Shown here: positions 7,680 through 58,706 of the stretch, piece by piece | How the letters are laid out: every line of letters starts with the position of its first letter | Numbering within the stretch: position 1 is the first letter of the stretch | Assembly: GCA_903822595.1 (NCBI GenBank) | Contig: CAIJPS010000019.1 | Span: 1-59,280 of the forward strand | From: an uncultured Chlorobiaceae bacterium | GTDB lineage: Bacteria; Bacteroidota; Chlorobiia; Chlorobiales; Chlorobiaceae | DNA: 59,280 nt | Direction of reading: 5' to 3' | Translations under genes and position numbers: made by a program | Notes under the pieces: model-generated | The model's input: only the letters and a program-made list of their open reading frames with translations | The model's database searches: none | Told to the model about the DNA's origin: nothing

Positions 7680-7967
7680 ATGAACTTGAAACCCTTATCC
7701 GATCGAGTTATTGTTAAGCCTGCAGCGGCGGAAGAAAAAACCAAAGGCGGCCTTTACATTCCTGATACCGGGAAAGAAAAACCGCAGTATGGTGAAGTTG
7801 TAGCTGTAGGAGCAGGTAAAATTGCCGACAATGGCCAGTTGCTTGAAATGCAGGTCAAGGTAGGCAGTAAAGTGCTGTATGGCAAATATTCCGGTACCGA
7901 AGTGAGCGTGGAAGGTGATGATTACCTCATCATGCGCGAATCGGACATTTTTGCTATTCTCGGCTGA
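7680..7967 (+). CDS. groES: Co-chaperonin GroES
   Basis: A 95-residue Cpn10 that caps the GroEL ring and closes the folding chamber. The [14 protein letters not shown] start, the mobile loop around residues 18-32 ([12 protein letters not shown]) and the roof segment are typical. The ATG at 7680 follows GAGAAG at a suitable distance; a longer frame reaching back into CIRCE is an artefact. It forms an operon with groEL 44 bases downstream, under CIRCE control. A second, divergent GroES-like protein lies at 49.2 kb. Confidence 0.97.
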
Positions 7968-8011
7968 TCTGTAATTAACTTTTTTTTAACCTACTGGAGG
8001 AACGCGTTACA

Positions 8012-9655
8012 ATGACTGCTAAAGATATTCTTTTTGATACTGAAGCCAGAGCAAAACTTAAAGTTGGCGTTGATAAACTGGCCAATGCCGTAAAAGTTAC
8101 CCTCGGACCTGCCGGACGTAACGTTTTGATCGACAAAAAATTCGGTGCACCGACCTCAACCAAGGATGGCGTTACCGTTGCAAAAGAGATCGAACTTTCT
8201 GACCCCTTTGAAAATATGGGTGCCCAGATGGTTCGTGAAGTTGCTTCAAAAACCAGCGATGTTGCCGGTGACGGTACAACAACCGCTACGGTGCTTGCTC
8301 AGGCAATCTATCGTGAAGGCCTGAAGAATGTAACTGCAGGCGCTCGTCCGATTGACCTCAAGAGAGGCATCGACCGTGCTGTTAAAGAGGTTGTGCAGGA
8401 GCTGAGAAACATCAGCCGCAGCATCTCCGGTAAAAAAGAGATTGCCCAGGTTGGTACCATCTCTGCCAACAACGATCCTGAAATCGGTGAACTGATTGCC
8501 GAAGCGATGGACAAGGTCGGCAAAGACGGTGTTATCACCGTTGAAGAGGCCAAAGGCATGGACACCGAATTGAAGGTAGTTGAAGGTATGCAGTTTGACC
8601 GTGGTTACCTTTCACCGTACTTCGTGACCAATCCTGAGACCATGGATGCCGAACTCGAAGATCCACTGATTCTTATCTACGACAAGAAGATCAGCAACAT
8701 GAAAGAGCTGCTTCCTATTCTTGAAAAATCAGCACAGTCCGGTCGTCCGCTTCTGATCATTTCAGAAGATATCGAAGGCGAAGCTCTTGCTACCATTGTT
8801 GTCAACAAGCTTCGTGGCACCCTGAGAGTATGTGCTGTCAAGGCTCCTGGCTTCGGCGATCGCCGCAAAGCCATGCTTGAAGACATCGCAATTCTTACCG
8901 GTGGTACCGTTATTTCCGAAGAGAAAGGCTACAAGCTCGAAAATGCAACCATTGCTTACCTCGGCCAGGCCGGTCGCGTGACCATCGACAAAGACAACAC
9001 CACGATTGTCGAAGGCAAGGGCGGCGCTGAAGAGATCAAGGCACGCATCAACGAAATCAAGGGACAGGTTGAAAAATCTACCTCCGATTACGATACAGAA
9101 AAATTGCAGGAGCGTCTTGCAAAACTTTCAGGCGGCGTTGCTGTCCTCAACATCGGAGCTTCAACCGAAGTCGAGATGAAAGAGAAAAAAGCCCGTGTTG
9201 AAGATGCACTTCACGCAACCCGTGCCGCTGTTCAGGAAGGTATCGTCGTTGGTGGCGGTGTTGCCCTGATCCGTGCGATCAAGGGTCTTGACCGTGCCAT
9301 TGCAGACAACGAAGATCAGAAGACCGGGATTGAAATTATCCGTCGCGCACTTGAAGAACCTCTTCGCCAGATTGTGGCAAACACCGGCACCACCGATGGC
9401 GCTGTTGTTCTTGAGAAGGTCAAGGCAGGAACCGGTGATTTTGGTTTCAATGCCAGAACCGAACAGTACGAAAACCTGGTTGAAGCAGGTGTGGTCGATC
9501 CTACCAAGGTAACCAGAAGCGCTCTTGAGAACGCCGCATCGGTTGCCAGTATCCTTTTGACCACCGAAGCAGCAATTACCGACATCAAGGAAGAGAAATC
9601 CGACATGCCCTCAATGCCTCCGGGCGGAATGGGTGGAATGGGCGGCATGTATTAA
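8012..9655 (+). CDS. groEL: Chaperonin GroEL
   Basis: The 547-residue ring chaperonin that folds cytoplasmic proteins with ATP and GroES. The ATP-site motifs [12 protein letters not shown] and AGDGTT context, the apical substrate-binding domain in the middle and the C-terminal flexible GGM tail ([10 protein letters not shown]) are all present. A strong GGAGGA ribosome site precedes ATG 8012. The length is standard, so this is a bona fide GroEL. The transcript is closed by the UUCG hairpin 30 bases downstream. Confidence 0.98.
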
Positions 9656-9680
9656 TTTCGGCGCCTCCATACTCTATAAA

Positions 9681-9710
9681 AAAAGCCAGCCTTCGGGTTG
9701 GCTTTTTTTT
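9681..9710 (+). terminator. Terminator of the groESL operon
   Basis: Stem GCCAGCC (9685-9691) pairs with GGTTGGC (9696-9702) across a UUCG tetraloop, extended by A/T pairs and followed by eight T residues. Confidence 0.93.
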
Positions 9711-9719
9711 GTTACTATT

Positions 9720-9748
9720 GACTCTATTATACAGTCTTTATTAGAGTC
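9720..9748. promoter_or_regulatory. Palindrome before antitoxin relic
   Basis: Inverted repeat GACTCTA (9720-9726) and TAGAGTC (9742-9748) sits 20 bases before the Phd-like start codon. Type II antitoxins normally bind such palindromes; here it may be a leftover operator. Confidence 0.3.
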
Positions 9749-9767
9749 GAATCAGGAGACTGATCTC

Positions 9768-9926
9768 ATGAAATACAGCACTTCAATCAAGCCCATCAGT
9801 TTTTTGAAAACTTCTTCTCGAACGATTGATACGTGGATAAGGGCTGCCAAACATTTCCATACTCACAGAATAATATTCAACCATTGCCGATGGCATCGAA
9901 AAACAGGTACTCAACATTTCAGATAG
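9768..9926 (+). pseudogene. Phd/YefM-type antitoxin remnant
   Basis: The first 20 codons (MKYSTSIKPISFLKTSSRTI) match the conserved N-terminus of Phd/YefM antitoxins, which bind DNA and neutralise RelE or Doc toxins. After that the reading frame becomes unrelated and stops at 9926, giving 52 residues instead of about 80-90. A good CAGGAG ribosome site precedes the ATG, so it was once expressed. No matching toxin follows; instead a relic sequence shared with 11243-11298 overlaps its end. Confidence 0.6.
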
Positions 9927-9946
9927 TCGAGAGCGTTACGTACTTT
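9891..9946. repeat. 56-bp relic repeat, copy A
   Basis: This 56-bp stretch reappears at 11243-11298 in the same orientation, with an identical 20-base core (tcaacatttcagatagtcga) and ten scattered mismatches. In one frame both copies read GIEK..[xx]NISDSR, so they look like fragments of the same small coding sequence that I cannot name. Confidence 0.65.
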
Positions 9947-10007
9947 TGATAAACAGACAGTGGAGAGATATTATGTTAAATCTGGACATTTTTAACGGTA
10001 TTTAGTT

Positions 10008-10196
10008 ATGGATACTCCAAAGGCCGAAGTATCAAGCATGTTGCAAACTTTTTCTGACGACGTATAAATTGAGTATATACAGCGCCATTTGTACGTTCTT
10101 GAGAAAGTTAATCGTGGTCTTGAGCGAGTTGAAACTGAAGGTGCAATTTCACATGACGCGGCAAAAGATCGTTTGAGTCGATGGCTTGTTTGTTAG
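10008..10196 (+). pseudogene. Antitoxin gene with internal stop codon
   Basis: A 63-codon frame interrupted by TAA at 10065-10067. The part after the stop (IQRHLYVLEKVNRGLERVE and the end LSRWL) resembles the small antitoxins that pair with ParE/RelE toxins, and the part before it (MLQTFSDDV) fits their usual LPDD-type segment. A single substitution in the codon after Val19 would explain the stop. The frame overlaps the downstream toxin frame by 16 bases, the arrangement of an intact toxin-antitoxin pair. It is presumably non-functional unless the stop is read through or translation restarts inside. Confidence 0.65.
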
Positions 10197-10357
10197 CATG
10201 GTCACCCGAAGCTCTTGAAGATGTTGAGCTGATTGCCTCTTTCGTAGAGCGCGGTTCGCTTTGGTATGTTAAAATTGTTGCCTCAAAAATTGTCAGTACC
10301 GCTGAATTTATACCACTTAATCCTGAAATCGGACCGATGCACCCTCTGAAAGGGTAA
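10181..10357 (+). pseudogene. Truncated ParE/RelE-like toxin
   Basis: A 58-codon frame starting at ATG 10181 inside the antitoxin end. WSPEALEDVELIASFVERGS and the following YVKIVASKIV are typical of the N-terminal half of ParE/RelE toxins, and IPLNPEIGPM matches their central turn. The frame then stops at 10357, so the C-terminal strands that carry the active surface are missing; full toxins have about 95-100 residues. A different frame runs on to 10431 but does not read as the lost half. Best seen as a dead toxin. Confidence 0.65.
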
Positions 10358-10471
10358 AAGAATTTGATGAAGAGTTTGATGAAGTTTTTAGGATGTTTAA
10401 TGCAACAAAAGCAAAAAGCGAAAATGTGTAATGATGTGAAAACTGACGATGAGTATTGCGGCGCGGCATCT

Positions 10472-10885
10472 TCAGGGAATTTCCCGCATTAAAGGCTGAA
10501 ATCCTGCCTGGGCAAAATGTTTGTCAAAGGTCAACGCTTGCAAAATTCCTTTTTCTTTCATGACAACAAACGATACGCAATCAATAAACCCCCACTCTTT
10601 ATCGTGCCGGGTTTGGTACAGTTTGAACGCCTGCTGAAATAATTCAGGGTTCAGGTGAATGATTTCCGTATCCTCTGACTGCAAAAACTCGTTGATAATC
10701 TTTATGGATTCCTGTTTATACCCTTTTGCCAGGGCGTTTCCAATTTCAAGGAGCACAACGTCAGTCGTCAGGAATGAGGAGCCTTCCAATCGTTCCGAAA
10801 GTTCAAGAGCCTGGCGATGATATTGATCTCGACGATTGACTAACCCGACAACGAACAAGGTATCAAGAAAGATTGGTTGAGGCAT
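10472..10885 (-). CDS. PIN-domain protein, probable VapC-like toxin
   Basis: A 137-residue PIN nuclease. The acidic set is in place: Asp in PIFLDT near the start, Glu in LLEIGNAL, Asp in WGFIDC and Asp in LTFDKHF. PIN toxins cleave RNA, often tRNA, using metal ions held by these residues. I use ATG 10885 (MPQPIFLD), because a longer start would run through the antitoxin gene, which overlaps the PIN start by 23 bases. The small upstream partner supports a type II toxin-antitoxin pair. Both genes look intact, unlike the relics beside them. Confidence 0.78.
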   Translation of the reverse strand: MPQPIFLDTLFVVGLVNRRDQYHRQALELSERLEGSSFLTTDVVLLEIGNALAKGYKQESIKIINEFLQSEDTEIIHLNPELFQQAFKLYQTRHDKEWGFIDCVSFVVMKEKGILQALTFDKHFAQAGFQPLMREIP

Positions 10886-11090
10886 TTTTTTCTCCGGATA
10901 GGTAGAGATCGAGATTTGCTGCAAAATCTTCCGGAGCATCAATCTGAATCTGACGGAGTTTTGTCATTAAACCGGGCTTTTTTTGCGGCTGTTTTGATTG
11001 AACAAACAGGGTGATGACCTGGTAAAGATCCTTTAGCCAGACCTCTTCAATCTGGTCGATTTCGCTATAAATCAGCTCTTTTGTAGTCAT
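10863..11090 (-). CDS. Small antitoxin-like protein (DUF2281-like)
   Basis: A 75-residue protein beginning MTTKELIYSEIDQIEEVWLK, the kind of helical N-terminus seen in DUF2281 proteins encoded just before PIN toxins. A near-perfect AGGAGG site eight bases upstream fixes ATG 11090. It precedes and overlaps the PIN gene, so translation is probably coupled, as in type II pairs where the antitoxin comes first. It has no obvious DNA-binding fold, so its role as antitoxin is inferred from gene order. Confidence 0.65.
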   Translation of the reverse strand: MTTKELIYSEIDQIEEVWLKDLYQVITLFVQSKQPQKKPGLMTKLRQIQIDAPEDFAANLDLYLSGEKNASTNLS

Positions 11091-19162: not shown

Positions 19163-19577
19163 AAAGCCGTTTTTGCTTTCCCGGAGTTGTTGTTTACGAG
19201 TTTTCCATGTTTTTTTTGCATACCGGCATTGGCGCGTCAACAGCCATTGCCAGATCTTCACCGCATATAATAGCATGAATTGCCCTCACTTTATAATGCA
19301 GGGGGGCGGAATCGTGAGAACCCTGCAGTTTTTTGCTTTCAACAGCGGCCTCCAGAAAGGCCTCCCCAAAAGGGTACTCCATAGAAATAATAACTATTCC
19401 CATGTTTATTGTTTCTTGTTTTCATTGTATCTTTACCGTATTGGCGTTGGGGAAGTCAAAAAAAAGGTTCGGCAACCATATTCTTTACGCCCATGTCCTA
19501 TTCCGAAAAGAGCGTCTTGATGCTTGATTCTTTGTGTGAAAAGCGCGGGAATGTTTTGTTACTACGCGTTGGAGGAG
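19163..19577. other. Intergenic region before the TPR operon
   Basis: Contains the 5' side of the cation transporter, the doubtful 69-codon frame and the leader of the TPR operon on the other strand. No terminator, repeat or riboswitch structure stands out. Confidence 0.4.
19194..19403 (-). CDS. Possible small hypothetical protein
   Basis: A 69-codon frame just upstream of the cation transporter on the same strand, separated by 31 bases. I do not recognise it; it has no signal peptide, no membrane segment and no clear ribosome site. It could be a short co-transcribed protein or chance. Confidence 0.25.
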   Translation of the reverse strand: MGIVIISMEYPFGEAFLEAAVESKKLQGSHDSAPLHYKVRAIHAIICGEDLAMAVDAPMPVCKKNMENS

Positions 19578-21950
19578 ATGGTGAATAAAAAGCTTTGCCT
19601 GTCGAGTGGCTCATATCATCGTCTCTTATCCCTTGCAGCCATAAGGGTCGTTGCTCTCTTAGTCGTTCTCTGCTGTGCGGGGATTCAGGGAGGGGCGTTA
19701 TGGGCGGCAGTCAACAGGGATGCTGAAGAGCTTTACAGTACAGAAAATTATGAGTCCCTTCTTGCTGTTGCACGTCAAACGGTTGCGGTTGCTGAAAAAA
19801 ATACCGGTACTCTTCATCCTGATTTTGCCCTCACTCTTAATAACCTGGCAGTACTCTACTCTATCCATGGCCGTTATACAGAAGCCCTTCCTCTCCTCAG
19901 GCAGGCACTTGCCATCCGCGAAAAAATTTTCAGCCCTTTTCATCCCGATGTTGCCGTCAGTCTGAATAACCTGGCGGAGGTCTGCAAGGCTCAAGGGAAA
20001 TACAATGAGGCTGAAGCGCTCTACCTGCGAGCTCTCGCCATTCGCGAAAAAACCAATACACCGTTTCACCCCGATCTGGCCATCAACCTGGCAAACCTTT
20101 CGGAGTTGTATCGAGTACAGTGCCGCTATACCGAAGCAGAGGCATTTTGCAAGCGCGCACTCGCCCTTCGCGAAAAGGGTTCCGGTGCTTCCGCCTCCGA
20201 TGTGGCTCAAAGTCTGAACAACCTTGGGAGAATCTATGTTGCCGTAGGGCGTTTGGCAGAGGCCGAGGCACTCTATATGCGATCAATGACTGTCTGGCAA
20301 AAGAGCCTCGGCGCCGGGCATCCGGAGATCGCAAAACCCTTGAACAACATGGCAGAGTTGTATTGCATTCAGGGCCGTTATACCGAGGCTGAACCGCTCT
20401 ACCTGCGATCTCTCTCCATTCGGGAAAAAATTCTTGGTCAGGAACATCCTGCGGTAGCAACAAGTCTGAACAACCTGGCCGGGCTTTATTTTGTATTGGG
20501 GCGATATGCTGAAGCTGAACCGCTCTATCTGCGTTCACTTTCCATTCGGGAAAAAATCCTTGGCCCGGAAAATCCTGCGGTAGCAACAAGTCTGAACAAC
20601 CTGGCCGGGCTTTATTTTGTACTGGGTCGCTATGCCGAGGCTGAACCGCTCTATCTGCGTTCACTTTCCATTCGGGAGAAAATTTTCAAACCGAATCACC
20701 CTGATGTCATAACGGTCATGAACAACCTTGCCGGGCTTTATGCTTCTGAAAGCAAATACGCTGAGGCTGTTCGACTCTCGGCACGCGTGCTTGCCATTCG
20801 CGAAAAGCTCTTTGGAGCAGACCAGCCTGATGTGGCAACGAGTCTCAACAATCTTGCAGGGATATATTTTTCCGAGGGGAAGTATAAAAAGGCCGAACGG
20901 CTCTACCTGCGTGCGCTCGCCATCAGGGAAAAAAATTATAGCTCTTTTCATCCCGATCTGGCGGTAAGTCTGAATAATCTCGGTGAGTTGTATCGTTCGC
21001 AAAGTCGCTATACCGAGGCCTTATCGTGCTTCAGTCGTGGGCTTGCCATCCGCGAGAAGCTCTTTGGCCCACAGCATCCCAACGTGGCGGCGAGTCTGAA
21101 TAATATCGCACTACTCCACAAAAATAAAGGCAACTATGGTGAGGCCGAGCCACTCTATCAGCGTGCACTTTCCATCAGGGAAAAAACCTTTGGCCCGCTG
21201 CATCCCGATGTAGCAACGAGCCTCAACAACCTTGCCACGCTATACATTACCCAGGCCCGTTTTTCAGAGGCTGAACCCCTCTGCCTGCGAGCGAAATCCA
21301 TCAATGAAACGATATATGGCACTTTTCATACCAATACGGCTCTCTCCCTGAACAACCTGGCAGAACTGAGAAAAGCTCAAGGTAAATACGGTGAGGCAGA
21401 ATCTCTTTATCAACAGGCTCTTGCCATACAGGAAAAGCTTTTTGGTATCCAGCACCCTGATGTCGCATCAACGCTCAATAACCTGGCAGAGTTATACCGT
21501 CACCAGTCCCTGTATGGGAAGGCATTGACTTTTTGCAAACGCTCGCTGGCCATCCGCAAGCAGCTCTATGGTTCCGCACATCCTGATGTAGCAACAAGTC
21601 TGAACAACCTTGCCTTGCTCTACAGTGAGCAGCGCAAGTACAAAGAGGCTGCTCCGCTTTACCTGCGGGCTCTTTCCATCAGGGAAAAATTTATGGGAAA
21701 GAATCATCCTGATGTAGCAATGAGCATCAACAATCTTGTTGCGCTCTATACTGTAGAAGGCCGGTATAAAGAGGCTGAACCACTCTGCAGGCGCTCACTG
21801 GCAATTGCAGAGAATACCTTGGGGCCTGTTCACCCCAACGTCGCCATCATTCTTGAAAATCTGGCCTTTATCTGTCAGAAAACAGGACGGCAGAATGATG
21901 CTGAGAGAATGGAAAAACGCGCAACACTCATTAATGCTGAAAAACGATGA
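19578..21950 (+). CDS. Exported 17-repeat TPR protein (kinesin-light-chain type), copy 1
   Basis: A 790-residue protein. An N-terminal signal sequence (LLSLAAIRVVALLVVLCC) is followed by a short linker and 17 uninterrupted 42-residue repeats with the consensus HPDVATSLNNLAxLYxxQGRYxEAEPLYxRALAIREKxFGPx (consensus, not literal sequence). These are TPR_10/TPR_12-type tetratricopeptide repeats, protein-binding superhelices. Repeats 6 and 7 are almost identical in DNA. GGAGGAG at 19571-19577 decides the start, and ATG 19578 and GTG 19581 are both possible. The stop overlaps the next start (ATGA). No enzyme domain is present, so a periplasmic or surface scaffold is likely. Confidence 0.85.
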   Translation: MVNKKLCLSSGSYHRLLSLAAIRVVALLVVLCCAGIQGGALWAAVNRDAEELYSTENYESLLAVARQTVAVAEKNTGTLHPDFALTLNNLAVLYSIHGRYTEALPLLRQALAIREKIFSPFHPDVAVSLNNLAEVCKAQGKYNEAEALYLRALAIREKTNTPFHPDLAINLANLSELYRVQCRYTEAEAFCKRALALREKGSGASASDVAQSLNNLGRIYVAVGRLAEAEALYMRSMTVWQKSLGAGHPEIAKPLNNMAELYCIQGRYTEAEPLYLRSLSIREKILGQEHPAVATSLNNLAGLYFVLGRYAEAEPLYLRSLSIREKILGPENPAVATSLNNLAGLYFVLGRYAEAEPLYLRSLSIREKIFKPNHPDVITVMNNLAGLYASESKYAEAVRLSARVLAIREKLFGADQPDVATSLNNLAGIYFSEGKYKKAERLYLRALAIREKNYSSFHPDLAVSLNNLGELYRSQSRYTEALSCFSRGLAIREKLFGPQHPNVAASLNNIALLHKNKGNYGEAEPLYQRALSIREKTFGPLHPDVATSLNNLATLYITQARFSEAEPLCLRAKSINETIYGTFHTNTALSLNNLAELRKAQGKYGEAESLYQQALAIQEKLFGIQHPDVASTLNNLAELYRHQSLYGKALTFCKRSLAIRKQLYGSAHPDVATSLNNLALLYSEQRKYKEAAPLYLRALSIREKFMGKNHPDVAMSINNLVALYTVEGRYKEAEPLCRRSLAIAENTLGPVHPNVAIILENLAFICQKTGRQNDAERMEKRATLINAEKR
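20453..20690 (+). repeat. Recent 126-bp tandem duplication within TPR gene
   Basis: TPR units 6 and 7 of the first TPR protein are nearly identical at DNA level over about 110 bases (compare 20461 onward with 20587 onward), whereas other units share only the protein consensus. This indicates recent unequal exchange or conversion. Confidence 0.75.
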
Positions 21951-22441
21951 CAACAATGCCTGCAAAAAATTCGATCCTGCGATTTTTGCAGATCTTTTTC
22001 CCTTGCGCGCTGGCTGTGATGGCTGCTTTTGTTCTTTTTGCGGCGGAGCCGCTCAAATATGGAGACAACTATGAGGGCGGAAGAGTGGTCTATCTCCTTC
22101 CAATCGATAAAATGGAGAGGGGGAGAGTGCCTGTACCCGTACAACATGGGGTAATTGCTGCCATATCGGATTTACCAGCTACCCTCACCTGGTTTGATGC
22201 CAAAGCGACATGCGACAGTTTGACGTTAAAAGGTTTTACGGATTGGACACTGCCAGCCAAGGAGGATCTGAACAGGCTCTTTATAAGCAAGGAGGTTCTT
22301 GGAGGATTTCAGAATGAAGAGTACTGGAGCTCTTCGTCTTCTGAACCCGACAACGCCATGAGTCAGAACTTCTTTGACGGAAAAGAGAATATTCATTCCA
22401 GGGGAGAGCGCTTGCGGGTCAGGCCGATACGAAAATTCTGA
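21947..22441 (+). CDS. Exported DUF1566 (Lcl C-terminal-like) protein, copy a
   Basis: A 164-residue protein with an N-terminal signal or anchor (FFPCALAVMAAFVLF). The domain has the usual order: GGRVVYL, HGVIAA, the tryptophan-rich WFDAKATC helix, GFTDWTLPAKEDLNRL, EYWSSSSSE and the end RVRPIRKF. The family includes the C-terminal domain of the Legionella adhesin Lcl, but its function is mostly unknown. The ATG overlaps the stop of the first TPR gene (ATGA), so the two are probably made together. This is the only complete DUF1566 domain inside the operon. Confidence 0.75.
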   Translation: MTTMPAKNSILRFLQIFFPCALAVMAAFVLFAAEPLKYGDNYEGGRVVYLLPIDKMERGRVPVPVQHGVIAAISDLPATLTWFDAKATCDSLTLKGFTDWTLPAKEDLNRLFISKEVLGGFQNEEYWSSSSSEPDNAMSQNFFDGKENIHSRGERLRVRPIRKF

Positions 22442-22471
22442 TGTTGTATTTCTGTAAAAAAAAGTAGCAAT

Positions 22472-22831
22472 ATGATGACCATTGTTATCAACAAAGTTCT
22501 GATCCGACCAGTGACGTTCCTTCTGTTCACTGCTACGGGCATGATTACGCATTCCACACTATCCCCGGCGGAATTGCTCAAGGTCGGCAATACCTATGGG
22601 GGCGAGAGAGTCGCCGACATTTTTCAGCCAGGTGACCAGGATTATGCTGAAACGGCAGAACAGGCCGTAATTGTTGCAAAAGCCGATGCTTCCACCACTC
22701 TCTACTGGTCTGATGCCAAAACCTCAAGTGACAAGCTTGAGGGGATGGGTTACGGTAAAATAAATTTACCGGGCAAAGCGGGAAAAAAACAACTTGTCGA
22801 GGTTAACTTTCATCTACGCAAATCTTCATGA
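22472..22831 (+). CDS. Exported half-DUF1566 protein, copy b
   Basis: A 119-residue protein with a signal-like start (VTFLLFTATGMITHS). It has the N-terminal half of the DUF1566 pattern (GNTYGGERVADIFQPGD, VIVAKAD, LYWSDAKT, ending at the NLPGK step) but lacks the WSSS core and the VR-x-VR end. The hallmark GLIAA is replaced by VIVAK, shared with copy c. The stop overlaps the start of the second TPR gene (ATGA), so it is coupled and presumably translated. It may be a decayed copy or a separate short form. Confidence 0.55.
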   Translation: MMTIVINKVLIRPVTFLLFTATGMITHSTLSPAELLKVGNTYGGERVADIFQPGDQDYAETAEQAVIVAKADASTTLYWSDAKTSSDKLEGMGYGKINLPGKAGKKQLVEVNFHLRKSS

Positions 22832-25242
22832 AAAACCATCTGTGTATAGGTCAAAAAATGTGCCGATCAAATCTCCTGACATTCAAGACGCTGAAGAGAG
22901 ACGCAAACCTGTACCTTCGGATTGTAAGGATAAGCAACAGAACGGTATTGATGCTGTTCCTCATGCTCTTGAGCAGCGGAATCCATTGTTCGAAAATTGT
23001 TCATGCGGCAAACAACAAGGATGTCGATGAACGTTACCGGATCAATCGCATCAAAATTATCGCAGAAAAAGATTTAATCGATGCGGAAAAGAGAACCGGG
23101 GTGAACTCTTCCGATCTGGCCCTGAGTCTGAACAATATTGCAGGAATCTATTATGCCCAAGGCCTCTATGGCGAATCTGAAGTGCTTTTCAGGCGTGCGC
23201 TCGCCATCCGCGAAAAAATTCTTGACAGCTCTCATCCTGATCTTGCCACCAGCCTGAACAATATGGCGGAGTTGTATAAGGCTCAAGGCCGATATGCCGA
23301 GGCGGAACCACTCTACCTGCGTGCGCTCGCCATCCGCGAAAAGATCTATACCGGCAATAACCTTGATGTAGCAGTGAGCCTGAACAATCTGGCCGAGTAT
23401 TATGGTACAGTGGACAAGTATGGCGTCGCAACATCGCTCTCTCTGCGCTCACTGGCAATCCGCGAGAAACTTCTTGGTCAAGACCATCCTGATGTAGCGA
23501 TGAGTCTGAACAACCTTGGGAGGTTGTACTTTGCCCAGGGCCGGTACGCCGAAGCCGAGCCCCTCTTTAAACGGGCGCTGGACATCGATGAACGTGCGCT
23601 TGGCCAGAGTCACCCTGATGTTGTTAGGCCTCTGAACAACCTTGGAGAGCTCTATCAAATTCAGGGAAAATACCAGGAAGCTGAGCCTTTTTACCTTCGT
23701 GCACTGGCAATTCGTGAGAAAACCCTTGACCCGTTTGATCCCCATGTGTCAACAAGTCTCAACAATCTGGCGGGATTTTACTATGCCCAGGGACGCTATA
23801 CAGAGTCTGAATCGCTCTACCTGCGTGCACTCGCTATTCGGGAAAAAGTTCTTGATTCCAATGACCCCGACATAGCCACCAGTCTGAATAACCTCGGGGA
23901 GTTGTATAAAATGCAGGGTCGGTACCGTGAGGCAGAGCCGCTCTTCAAGCGAGCTCTGGCAATCCGGGAAAAGGTTTTTGGTCTCAATCATTCCGAGGTA
24001 TCCATTACCCTGAACAGTCTTGCCGGGCTTTACTCTGTACAGGGAAGATATGCTGAAATTGAAGTTCTCTCCAAACGGGCGCTGGCCATCCGGGAAGCGG
24101 TCTTTGGATCCGATCAACCCGATATCGCCACATGCCTGAATAATCTGGCAGGATTTTACGCTCTCCAGGGCAGATATAAAGAGGCTGAACCGCTCTATCT
24201 GCGTGCATTGGCAATCCATGAGAAGACATTTGACCTGGCACACCCCCGTGTGGCGCAGATTCTGAACAACCTGGCTGAGTTTTACAAAACTCAGGGCAGA
24301 TATAAAGAGGCTGAACCGCTCTACCTTCGTGCACTGGAAATCAGGGAGAAGAGCTTTGGCCTTGAGCACCCTGATGTTGCAAAAAGCCTGAATAACCTGG
24401 CAACGCTTTACCGGGTACAGGAAAAATACCTCGCGGCATTACCACTCATAAAGCGGGCGCTGGCCATTCAGGAAAAAGTCCTCGGCCCTGACCATCCCGA
24501 TGTAGCGGTGAAGCTGAATAACCTGGCATCCCTTTACTATGCCCAGGGTCAATATGCACTGGCCGAGCCGCTTTTTAAACGTGCGCAGATCATTTTTGAA
24601 AAAACCCTCGGTTCTGACTCTCCCGATCTTGCTTTCAGCATCAACAACATTGCTGCTCTTTATTATGCCCAGGGCCGATACCGTGAGGTTGAACCTCTTT
24701 ACAAGCGTACGCTTTTGATTTTTGAGCATGCCTTTCTCTTGCCTTCAGCGGATGTTGCCCTGAGTCTGGATAATCTCGCTCAGTTGTTCCTTACCCAGAA
24801 GAGATACAAAGAGGCGGAGCCACTCTTCAGGCGAGCACTTGCCATTCGCGAAAAGCTCTTTGGCTCCCTTCACCCCGATGTGGCAATGAGTTTGAATAAT
24901 ATGGCGTTACTCTACAATGCCCAGGCCCAATATCGTGAGGCAGAGCCCCTTTTGAAGCGTTCACTTCAGATCTGGGAAAAAACTCTTGGTCTCGATCACA
25001 CCAATGTGGCGGTGAGTCTCAATAACCTTGCTGTCATTTATGTTGCCCTGGGTCAGTATAAAGAGGCTGAGCACTTGTCGCAGCGTTCACTTGCAATCAT
25101 CGAGAAAAATCTTGGCCCGATTCATCCAAATGTGGCGATGCTCCTTGATAATTTGGCGGTCATCTATGCAAATACCGGACGCCAAAGCGATGCTGACAAT
25201 ATGGAAAAACGGGCAACTGACATTCGTGCCATACATCGATGA
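22828..25242 (+). CDS. Exported 17-repeat TPR protein (kinesin-light-chain type), copy 2
   Basis: A 804-residue paralogue of the protein at 19578. After an unusually long basic N-terminus, a hydrophobic segment (TVLMLFLMLLSSGIHC) and a linker, 17 repeats of 42 residues follow, again ending in a cap with TGRQ and MEKRAT motifs shared with copy 1. The same repeat count and cap point to duplication of a complete gene. The start at ATG 22828 overlaps the stop of the half-DUF1566 gene; ATG 22858 would shorten the basic tail. No catalytic domain. Role inferred as a protein-binding scaffold outside the inner membrane. Confidence 0.82.
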   Translation: MKNHLCIGQKMCRSNLLTFKTLKRDANLYLRIVRISNRTVLMLFLMLLSSGIHCSKIVHAANNKDVDERYRINRIKIIAEKDLIDAEKRTGVNSSDLALSLNNIAGIYYAQGLYGESEVLFRRALAIREKILDSSHPDLATSLNNMAELYKAQGRYAEAEPLYLRALAIREKIYTGNNLDVAVSLNNLAEYYGTVDKYGVATSLSLRSLAIREKLLGQDHPDVAMSLNNLGRLYFAQGRYAEAEPLFKRALDIDERALGQSHPDVVRPLNNLGELYQIQGKYQEAEPFYLRALAIREKTLDPFDPHVSTSLNNLAGFYYAQGRYTESESLYLRALAIREKVLDSNDPDIATSLNNLGELYKMQGRYREAEPLFKRALAIREKVFGLNHSEVSITLNSLAGLYSVQGRYAEIEVLSKRALAIREAVFGSDQPDIATCLNNLAGFYALQGRYKEAEPLYLRALAIHEKTFDLAHPRVAQILNNLAEFYKTQGRYKEAEPLYLRALEIREKSFGLEHPDVAKSLNNLATLYRVQEKYLAALPLIKRALAIQEKVLGPDHPDVAVKLNNLASLYYAQGQYALAEPLFKRAQIIFEKTLGSDSPDLAFSINNIAALYYAQGRYREVEPLYKRTLLIFEHAFLLPSADVALSLDNLAQLFLTQKRYKEAEPLFRRALAIREKLFGSLHPDVAMSLNNMALLYNAQAQYREAEPLLKRSLQIWEKTLGLDHTNVAVSLNNLAVIYVALGQYKEAEHLSQRSLAIIEKNLGPIHPNVAMLLDNLAVIYANTGRQSDADNMEKRATDIRAIHR

Positions 25243-25320
25243 TCATATTATCCTGACGATGGCAACAGGAGAGGCGAGCCGTAGTACAGCACGGGATAAA
25301 ACTCTTTAACGTATTGAATC

Positions 25321-25710
25321 ATGAAACTCTTCGAGATAACAGGTGTGGTAAGGCTCTTAAAAGTGATCCTGTTTACGGGAACAGCTGTTGCTGCTCTTTC
25401 TGCTGTAGCACCTGCAGTACCGCTCAAGATAGGCGATGAAGCGGGCGGAGGTAAAGTAGCTTATATTCTGCAGCAAGGGGATGTTGGCTACCTTGACACC
25501 CCTGAACAAACCATGATTGTCGCCAAAGTTGATATAACCAGCCATCTTTTCTGGTCTGATTCAAAAATAGCATGTGAAAAACTGCAATGTCCCGGTTATA
25601 TTATCTCTTTACCCAAAGGGTTATTACGCAATAAAGAGGATGTTGCGGCTTCAGCGTCAGGAAGCAGTTTGGCTGGAACTCCAATGCTGACAAGTCGGTT
25701 ACGCCAATGA
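25321..25710 (+). CDS. Exported half-DUF1566 protein, copy c
   Basis: A 129-residue protein with a signal peptide (VILFTGTAVAALSAV then AVAPAVP). It shares with copy b the pattern LKIGDEAGGGKVAYI, a QQGD turn, EQTMIVAK and LFWSDSK, then ends with a stretch that has no family match. In the +2 frame the DNA near 25670 reads WNSNADKS, faintly like the lost WSSS core, so a frameshift in the 3' part is possible. Last gene of the block, 78 bases after the second TPR gene. Confidence 0.5.
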   Translation: MKLFEITGVVRLLKVILFTGTAVAALSAVAPAVPLKIGDEAGGGKVAYILQQGDVGYLDTPEQTMIVAKVDITSHLFWSDSKIACEKLQCPGYIISLPKGLLRNKEDVAASASGSSLAGTPMLTSRLRQ

Positions 25711-25975
25711 TCGCGTCTCTCCTTTAAAAGAGGTTATCCCCCCCCCTGTCGTTCCTGGCTTGTTAATGAAAAAGAGGTGGCTCTTTTGACCAATCCATGG
25801 CTTGTGCCCTCGGTCATGGATTGGGTGGTAAAAAAGGGATCGCCTTTTTTGCGTCCATGTTCAGGCTTTTTTGTATGTTCAAAAGGGTGTTTTTGCGTTT
25901 TTCTGCCAAACGTACGCTCCCTTCTGATGTTCTTGTTTAAATGGTGGTTAAGTTGTTTTAACAGATGTTCATGTT
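25711..25975. other. Intergenic region with three hairpins
   Basis: After the TPR operon come a nine-C homopolymer (25738-25746) and three successive inverted repeats: AAAAGAG/CTCTTTT (25770-25787), CCAATCCATG/CATGGATTGG (25790-25824) and AAAAAAGG/CCTTTTTT (25830-25850). The first and last end in T runs and could terminate the operon. The remaining 125 bases lead to bshA and show no clear promoter. Confidence 0.6.
25830..25850 (+). terminator. Probable terminator of the TPR/DUF1566 operon
   Basis: Eight-base stem AAAAAAGG/CCTTTTTT with a five-base loop; the 3' arm supplies the T tract. It is weak in GC but backed by the hairpins just upstream. Confidence 0.5.
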
Positions 25976-58076: not shown

Positions 58077-58706
58077 ATGAAATTCCCTGCAAAAGAACCA
58101 TTTAATTGGATATGGATTACGGTACTGTTTGCAGGTCTGTGTATGGTGACGGTTACAGCACAATCCTTTGCCGTAACCATCGGTGACAAGTATAACGGAG
58201 GTATCGTTTTTTATGTCGATGATACCGGTCAGCATGGTCTGATAGCCGCCACAACAGATGCAAGTGACAGCTATTGTGATGCCTGGAATGGAAATACCTA
58301 TGCGGGAGAGTATACCTGGAGTACCGGCCAGTGGAAAGTTGTGAAGAAAAGGGATTATGCGTTCAAAAAAATAGATGATACAAGTACTGCGATTGGTCAG
58401 GGAGCAGAAAATACAAGAAAGATATTGGCAAAATATCCAGCAGCAATCTATCCCAATAGCGCAGCCGCAGTTGCAGCGGCATATCGCGGTGGCGGGTATA
58501 GCGACTGGTTTTTGCCGAGCAAGGATGAACTGAACCTGCTCTATCTTCAAAAGGGTGTTGTCGGCGGTTTTGTCGATCACAATTACTACTGGAGTTCATC
58601 GATGAATAGCTGGAATTACGCCTGGGCACAGTATTTCAGCACGGGTCTTCAGTATTTCAACAATATGTCGTACTACAATCGGGTTCGGGCTGTACGGGCT
58701 TTTTAA
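58077..58706 (+). CDS. Exported DUF1566 (Lcl C-terminal-like) protein, complete
   Basis: A 209-residue protein with a signal peptide (VLFAGLCMVTVTAQSFA) and a full DUF1566 domain: YNGGIVFYVDDTGQHGLIAA, DWFLPSKDELNLLY, NYYWSSS, a WAQYFSTG loop and the end NRVRAVRAF. It is the intact relative of the shorter proteins in the TPR operon 33 kb upstream, but stands alone here between pepD and a transposase fragment. Function unknown; the family includes surface adhesins. Confidence 0.78.
   Translation: MKFPAKEPFNWIWITVLFAGLCMVTVTAQSFAVTIGDKYNGGIVFYVDDTGQHGLIAATTDASDSYCDAWNGNTYAGEYTWSTGQWKVVKKRDYAFKKIDDTSTAIGQGAENTRKILAKYPAAIYPNSAAAVAAAYRGGGYSDWFLPSKDELNLLYLQKGVVGGFVDHNYYWSSSMNSWNYAWAQYFSTGLQYFNNMSYYNRVRAVRAF

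Follow-up and report, generated by a model that had tools for sequence, protein, structure and literature searches.

A linked TPR and truncated DUF1566 cassette in Chlorobiaceae as a candidate exported recognition module

Exported TPR scaffolds and lipoproteins, such as Tgl, PilW and PorW/SprE, serve surface assemblies. A second known form of the TPR solenoid, that of the kinesin light chains, is built from 42-aa repeats carrying an Asn pair. The third relevant part is the C-terminal domain (PF07603, also Lcl_C or DUF1566) of the Legionella collagen-like adhesin Lcl, which has been described as trimeric and glycosaminoglycan-binding (PMC11162425). Here we analyse a cassette, carried on a 59,280-nucleotide stretch of DNA from an uncultured Chlorobiaceae bacterium (the window), in which TPR and DUF1566-type proteins are encoded side by side. 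Both domain types are common, and the cassette is a new combination of known parts. The original prediction knew of no described system of this form, and the literature searched agrees, as a linked module of an exported TPR protein and a truncated lectin-like protein is absent from it: nothing joined Chlorobium and DUF1566, and the titles returned for DUF1566 with tetratricopeptide concerned only Legionella and Leptospira.

The cassette lies between ordinary flanks, with a CDF cation transporter gene on the left and bshA (bacillithiol synthesis) on the right, the latter followed by a gene labelled MreB-like from its sequence, not by family search. Five same-strand genes had been predicted, and all five ORFs were found at those positions, in the order TPR1, FULL, HALF1, TPR2, HALF2. 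The genes group into two units, TPR1-FULL-HALF1 (19578-22831) and TPR2-HALF2 (22828-25710), and the features are as follows.

19302..25840 (approximate ends), no strand: stretch missing from relatives with an empty site, in which the CDF gene adjoins bshA
19578..21950, + strand: TPR1, 790 aa from the ATG at 19578, a TPR solenoid with a signal-like N-terminus
21947..22441, + strand: FULL, 164 aa, a complete Lcl_C/DUF1566 protein with a C-type-lectin-like predicted fold and a signal-like N-terminus
22472..22831, + strand: HALF1, 119 aa, a truncated DUF1566 relative with the N-terminal part only, without Pfam match
22828..25242, + strand: TPR2, 804 aa, a TPR solenoid of seventeen 42-aa registers with a signal-like N-terminus
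25321..25710, + strand: HALF2, 129 aa, a truncated DUF1566 relative, constant companion of TPR2
25789..25852 (approximate), + strand: two hairpins 3' of HALF2, a probable transcript end before bshA

Both of the ATGA overlaps noted earlier, TPR1/FULL at 21947 and HALF1/TPR2 at 22828, are present in the sequence and recur in relatives, while 30 bases separate FULL from HALF1 and 78 bases separate TPR2 from HALF2. For TPR1, the ORF list also holds an alternative TTG start at 19524. The hairpins at about 25789-25852 are not among the terminators listed by a simple terminator scan.

As predicted, no catalytic domain was found in the TPR proteins. At 790-804 aa they are long rather than giant. The label TPR17 has to be replaced: the best Pfam models for both proteins are TPR_10/TPR_12 (E 1e-188 to 1e-201), whose curated cut-off is passed by the 42-aa repeats and which score far ahead of TPR_17. 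Each protein contains seventeen 42-residue registers without insertion, counting the last, cap-like one, and Asn occupies repeat positions 2 and 3 in 30-31 of 32 TPR repeats. By sequence, the nearest solved structures are kinesin light chains, with which the repeat length and the Asn pair are shared; in contrast to these, the proteins described here are bacterial and probably exported, have seventeen registers and contain no coiled coil. The repeats of TPR1 match those of TPR2 only weakly (0.55 on register versus 0.51 off), and conservation of individual repeats between the two paralogues is therefore not claimed. Tgl, PilW and PorW/SprE give weak NCBIfam matches, all far under the family cut-offs, and differ in that we saw no clear lipobox and no linked pilus or secretion genes here. 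Similarly, the TPR protein of the FxSxx-COOH system (NF040586) was considered and rejected: the scores of 374.6 and 315.2 exceed the cut-off of 300, but the match is to TPR repeats only, the best stretches listed cover no more than 399-694 and 441-797 of the 830 profile positions, and the genes of that system were not found beside the TPR locus. Another type of TPR protein with an exported-type N-terminus, nearly identical there between two loci (L048:3064-4623 and L046:1-1017), has no DUF1566 gene in the stretches read, and a 1158-aa protein on contig C34 of the same genome as the window (L050:4708-8184) combines similar TPR repeats with a different N-terminus that lacks a signal.

FULL passes the curated cut-off of Lcl_C/DUF1566 (PF07603; 46.9 versus 34.9 bits) and has the same domain as the C-terminal part of Lcl (profile E 9e-20). 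AlphaFold2 models it well from about residue 66 to residue 164, and the top structural match is the Lcl C-terminal domain (PDB 8q4e; Foldseek E 8e-9), followed by C-type-lectin-like folds. However, FULL differs from Lcl in having no collagen-like region and in being linked to TPR and HALF genes, and of the five basic positions mutated to study binding by Lcl (PMC11162425), four are non-basic in FULL by manual comparison. By sequence FULL does not qualify as an Lcl-type glycosaminoglycan-binding collagen-like adhesin, reaching 43.7 against 500 bits with the NCBIfam Lcl model, over the last domain only.

Profile alignment shows the HALF proteins to be homologous to FULL over its N-terminal part alone. 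About residues 1-110 of FULL are matched by the HALF profile (E 6e-33), the remainder of the domain is absent, and no Pfam or NCBIfam family model matched HALF1 or HALF2. The AlphaFold2 model of HALF1 was unusable (pLDDT 47, no confident fold). The lectin-like character proposed earlier thus stands for FULL, by structure comparison, while fold prediction for HALF gave no usable model.

Conserved TPR/DUF1566 neighbourhoods are not restricted to this genome. Of 86 Chlorobiaceae genomes, counting the one studied here, 10 carry the unit, with a total of 19 TPR-HALF pairs placed in at least five chromosomal flank contexts. Because the arrangement is conserved in ten genomes, it reflects more than chance. 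Most carriers with named records are metagenome-assembled genomes of uncultured Chlorobiaceae, and no match of HALF grade was found outside the genus when 296 genomes of the phylum were sampled. All strong HALF matches sit beside a TPR gene, the next-best matches being longer FULL-like proteins, and no secretion machinery is linked in the flanks of these loci. This genome has three loci of the type: the window, C14 (TPR, HALF, FULL; also in G058, G061 and G079) and C24 (TPR, HALF; also in G068). Genome G079 carries all five genes with the order and both ATGA overlaps of the window. TPR-FULL-HALF occurs in G053, G055, G058 (two loci), G061, G068 and G074, with TPR-FULL-HALF-FULL in G057 and TPR-HALF in G066, and the TPR-FULL overlap is kept in G055, G068, G058 (C85), G053, G061 (C259) and G057. 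HALF is more constant across units than FULL, which is optional. The constant pairing that the original prediction saw between TPR and DUF1566 proteins therefore holds for HALF (the 19 pairs) and fails for the complete DUF1566 protein. Many DUF1566 genes in this genome lie away from any TPR gene; the product of one of them, a further small Lcl_C protein of 209 aa with a signal-like N-terminus (window 58077-58706), has no TPR neighbour that could be found within the window.

The history of the site is visible in relatives. At 18 of 30 inspected loci the CDF gene directly adjoins bshA with no cassette between them, homology to these empty sites ending at about 19301 and resuming at about 25841, and the close relative G068 is empty here and carries a unit elsewhere. 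G066 retains an intact TPR2-HALF2 behind a TPR1 stump fused to the HALF1 end, while G053 keeps TPR1-FULL-HALF1 followed by only the first codons of TPR2 and a broken HALF2. These two natural deletions indicate that all five genes have long been present together at this site and that the units were lost separately. Other copies are damaged, with a truncated TPR1 in G058:C9 and a frameshifted FULL in G058:C85. Trees of TPR and HALF recover the same groups with strong support; this agreement fits co-duplication and is no proof of binding.

All cassette genes are under purifying selection, yet they change several times faster than the neighbour gene bshA (dN/dS 0.04-0.09). In pairwise comparisons of the window genes with their orthologues, dN/dS was 0.16-0.34 for the TPR genes, 0.33-0.44 for FULL, 0.26 for HALF2 and 0.35-0.59 for HALF1, the least constrained gene, which reaches 0.79 between close relatives; HALF4 gave 0.21. 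A constrained but fast pattern of this kind would suit exposed or partner-facing proteins, in which it is often seen. The C24-type locus showed a much lower dS in its TPR gene (0.09) than in its HALF gene (0.25) between G000 and G068 (L045:6990-9641, L101:7421-10072), suggesting that the TPR part was recombined or transferred.

Export signals had been proposed for all five products, and a home-made heuristic did find signal-peptide-like N-termini on every one. This heuristic is simple and its result is suggestive: 3 of 23 relatives did not pass it, and of 39 other ORFs in the window 7 passed a stricter version, which leaves Sec export of the five products likely rather than proven. Elsewhere in the genome, kinases, a phosphatase and a TIR protein carry Lcl_C after a predicted membrane helix. 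On contig C74, a cluster of Ser/Thr kinases and a PP2C phosphatase bear the domain at the C-terminus in a receptor-like arrangement (L055:3576-5045, 7754-9304 and 9444-10907; L056:1656-3014), and on contig C29 a TIR domain, a predicted membrane helix and Lcl_C are joined in one protein (L057:2318-3595).

The heritable core of the cassette consists of HALF and a TPR solenoid whose repeat number is stable, with the complete Lcl_C protein as an optional third part, and its units have been duplicated, placed at different sites and lost separately under purifying selection while evolving fast. Our preferred reading, to which we give a probability of about 0.4, is an exported recognition module of one Chlorobiaceae clade, with a TPR and HALF core, an optional Lcl_C protein and, here, two tandem unit copies. 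Sec would export all five products from the cytoplasm. The TPR groove, with the Asn pair of kinesin-light-chain-type repeats, may then hold HALF, an incomplete domain that is probably unable to fold alone; we infer this because the linkage is constant, the Asn pair is kept and HALF lacks part of the domain. The resulting TPR-HALF scaffold could work in the periplasm or on the cell surface, where it would present or escort lectin-like subunits, and the fast evolution might reflect changing ligands or partners. An outward-facing position is suggested because of the signal-like N-termini and because Lcl_C stands behind a predicted membrane helix elsewhere in this genome. It is tempting to go further and speculate that an exported TPR solenoid with a fixed number of repeats has a truncated lectin domain as its dedicated subunit, by which lectin-like proteins are arrayed or completed in a surface recognition system outside the cell, although we consider this doubtful, and the earlier idea that the TPR scaffolds count DUF1566 subunits found no support.

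The main rival to this module is a co-inherited neighbourhood whose products do not interact, in which exported, fast-evolving genes are transcribed and duplicated together without forming a physical complex and the HALF genes are shrinking relics of FULL-type genes. We regard this as a real, if minority, possibility. Linked duplication alone would yield the agreement of the TPR and HALF trees, and HALF1, the least constrained gene, has neither the C-terminal part of the domain nor a predicted fold. The module reading is further weakened by the loose constraint on HALF1, by the lack of a confident HALF model, by the simple signal heuristic with its failures among relatives, by the absence of the cassette from most of the family and by the damaged copies. 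However, the HALF frames are open in all groups, HALF2 and HALF4 show the constraint given above, HALF is retained more constantly than FULL, and unit composition is kept at five kinds of site, all of which speaks against this rival. The linkage is strong and the original interpretation partly supported, with the physical TPR-DUF1566 assembly as its hypothetical part.

A chaperone role, in which the TPR proteins carry DUF1566 proteins through the periplasm to the outer membrane or surface and stay outside the final structure, would suit the TPR-type groove and the pairing, in each unit, of one TPR gene with a small exported partner; the DUF1566 proteins without TPR neighbours and the lack of linked secretion machinery make it unlikely. 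Fast evolution, repeated copies and presence/absence variation are also what a conflict module would display, be it a contact-dependent effector with its partner or a defence system, but we think this quite improbable, as no toxin, nuclease or defence domain was found; anti-phage defence was rejected, PADLOC giving generic TPR matches only. Finally, DUF1566 is mentioned in published surveys of diversity-generating retroelements and reverse transcriptases are present in the genome, so that FULL could be the variable lectin-like target of such an element. This idea is barely plausible and was rejected, as a search of the genome for a second, template-like copy of the FULL 3' end found none, the best other match spanning 27 bases.

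If the proteins of the preferred exported module do bind one another, the cassette would be a candidate adhesion or cell-contact system for these Chlorobiaceae, and the orphan HALF family would gain a role. It would also offer a clean test case of whether a TPR groove can hold half of a C-type-lectin-like domain.
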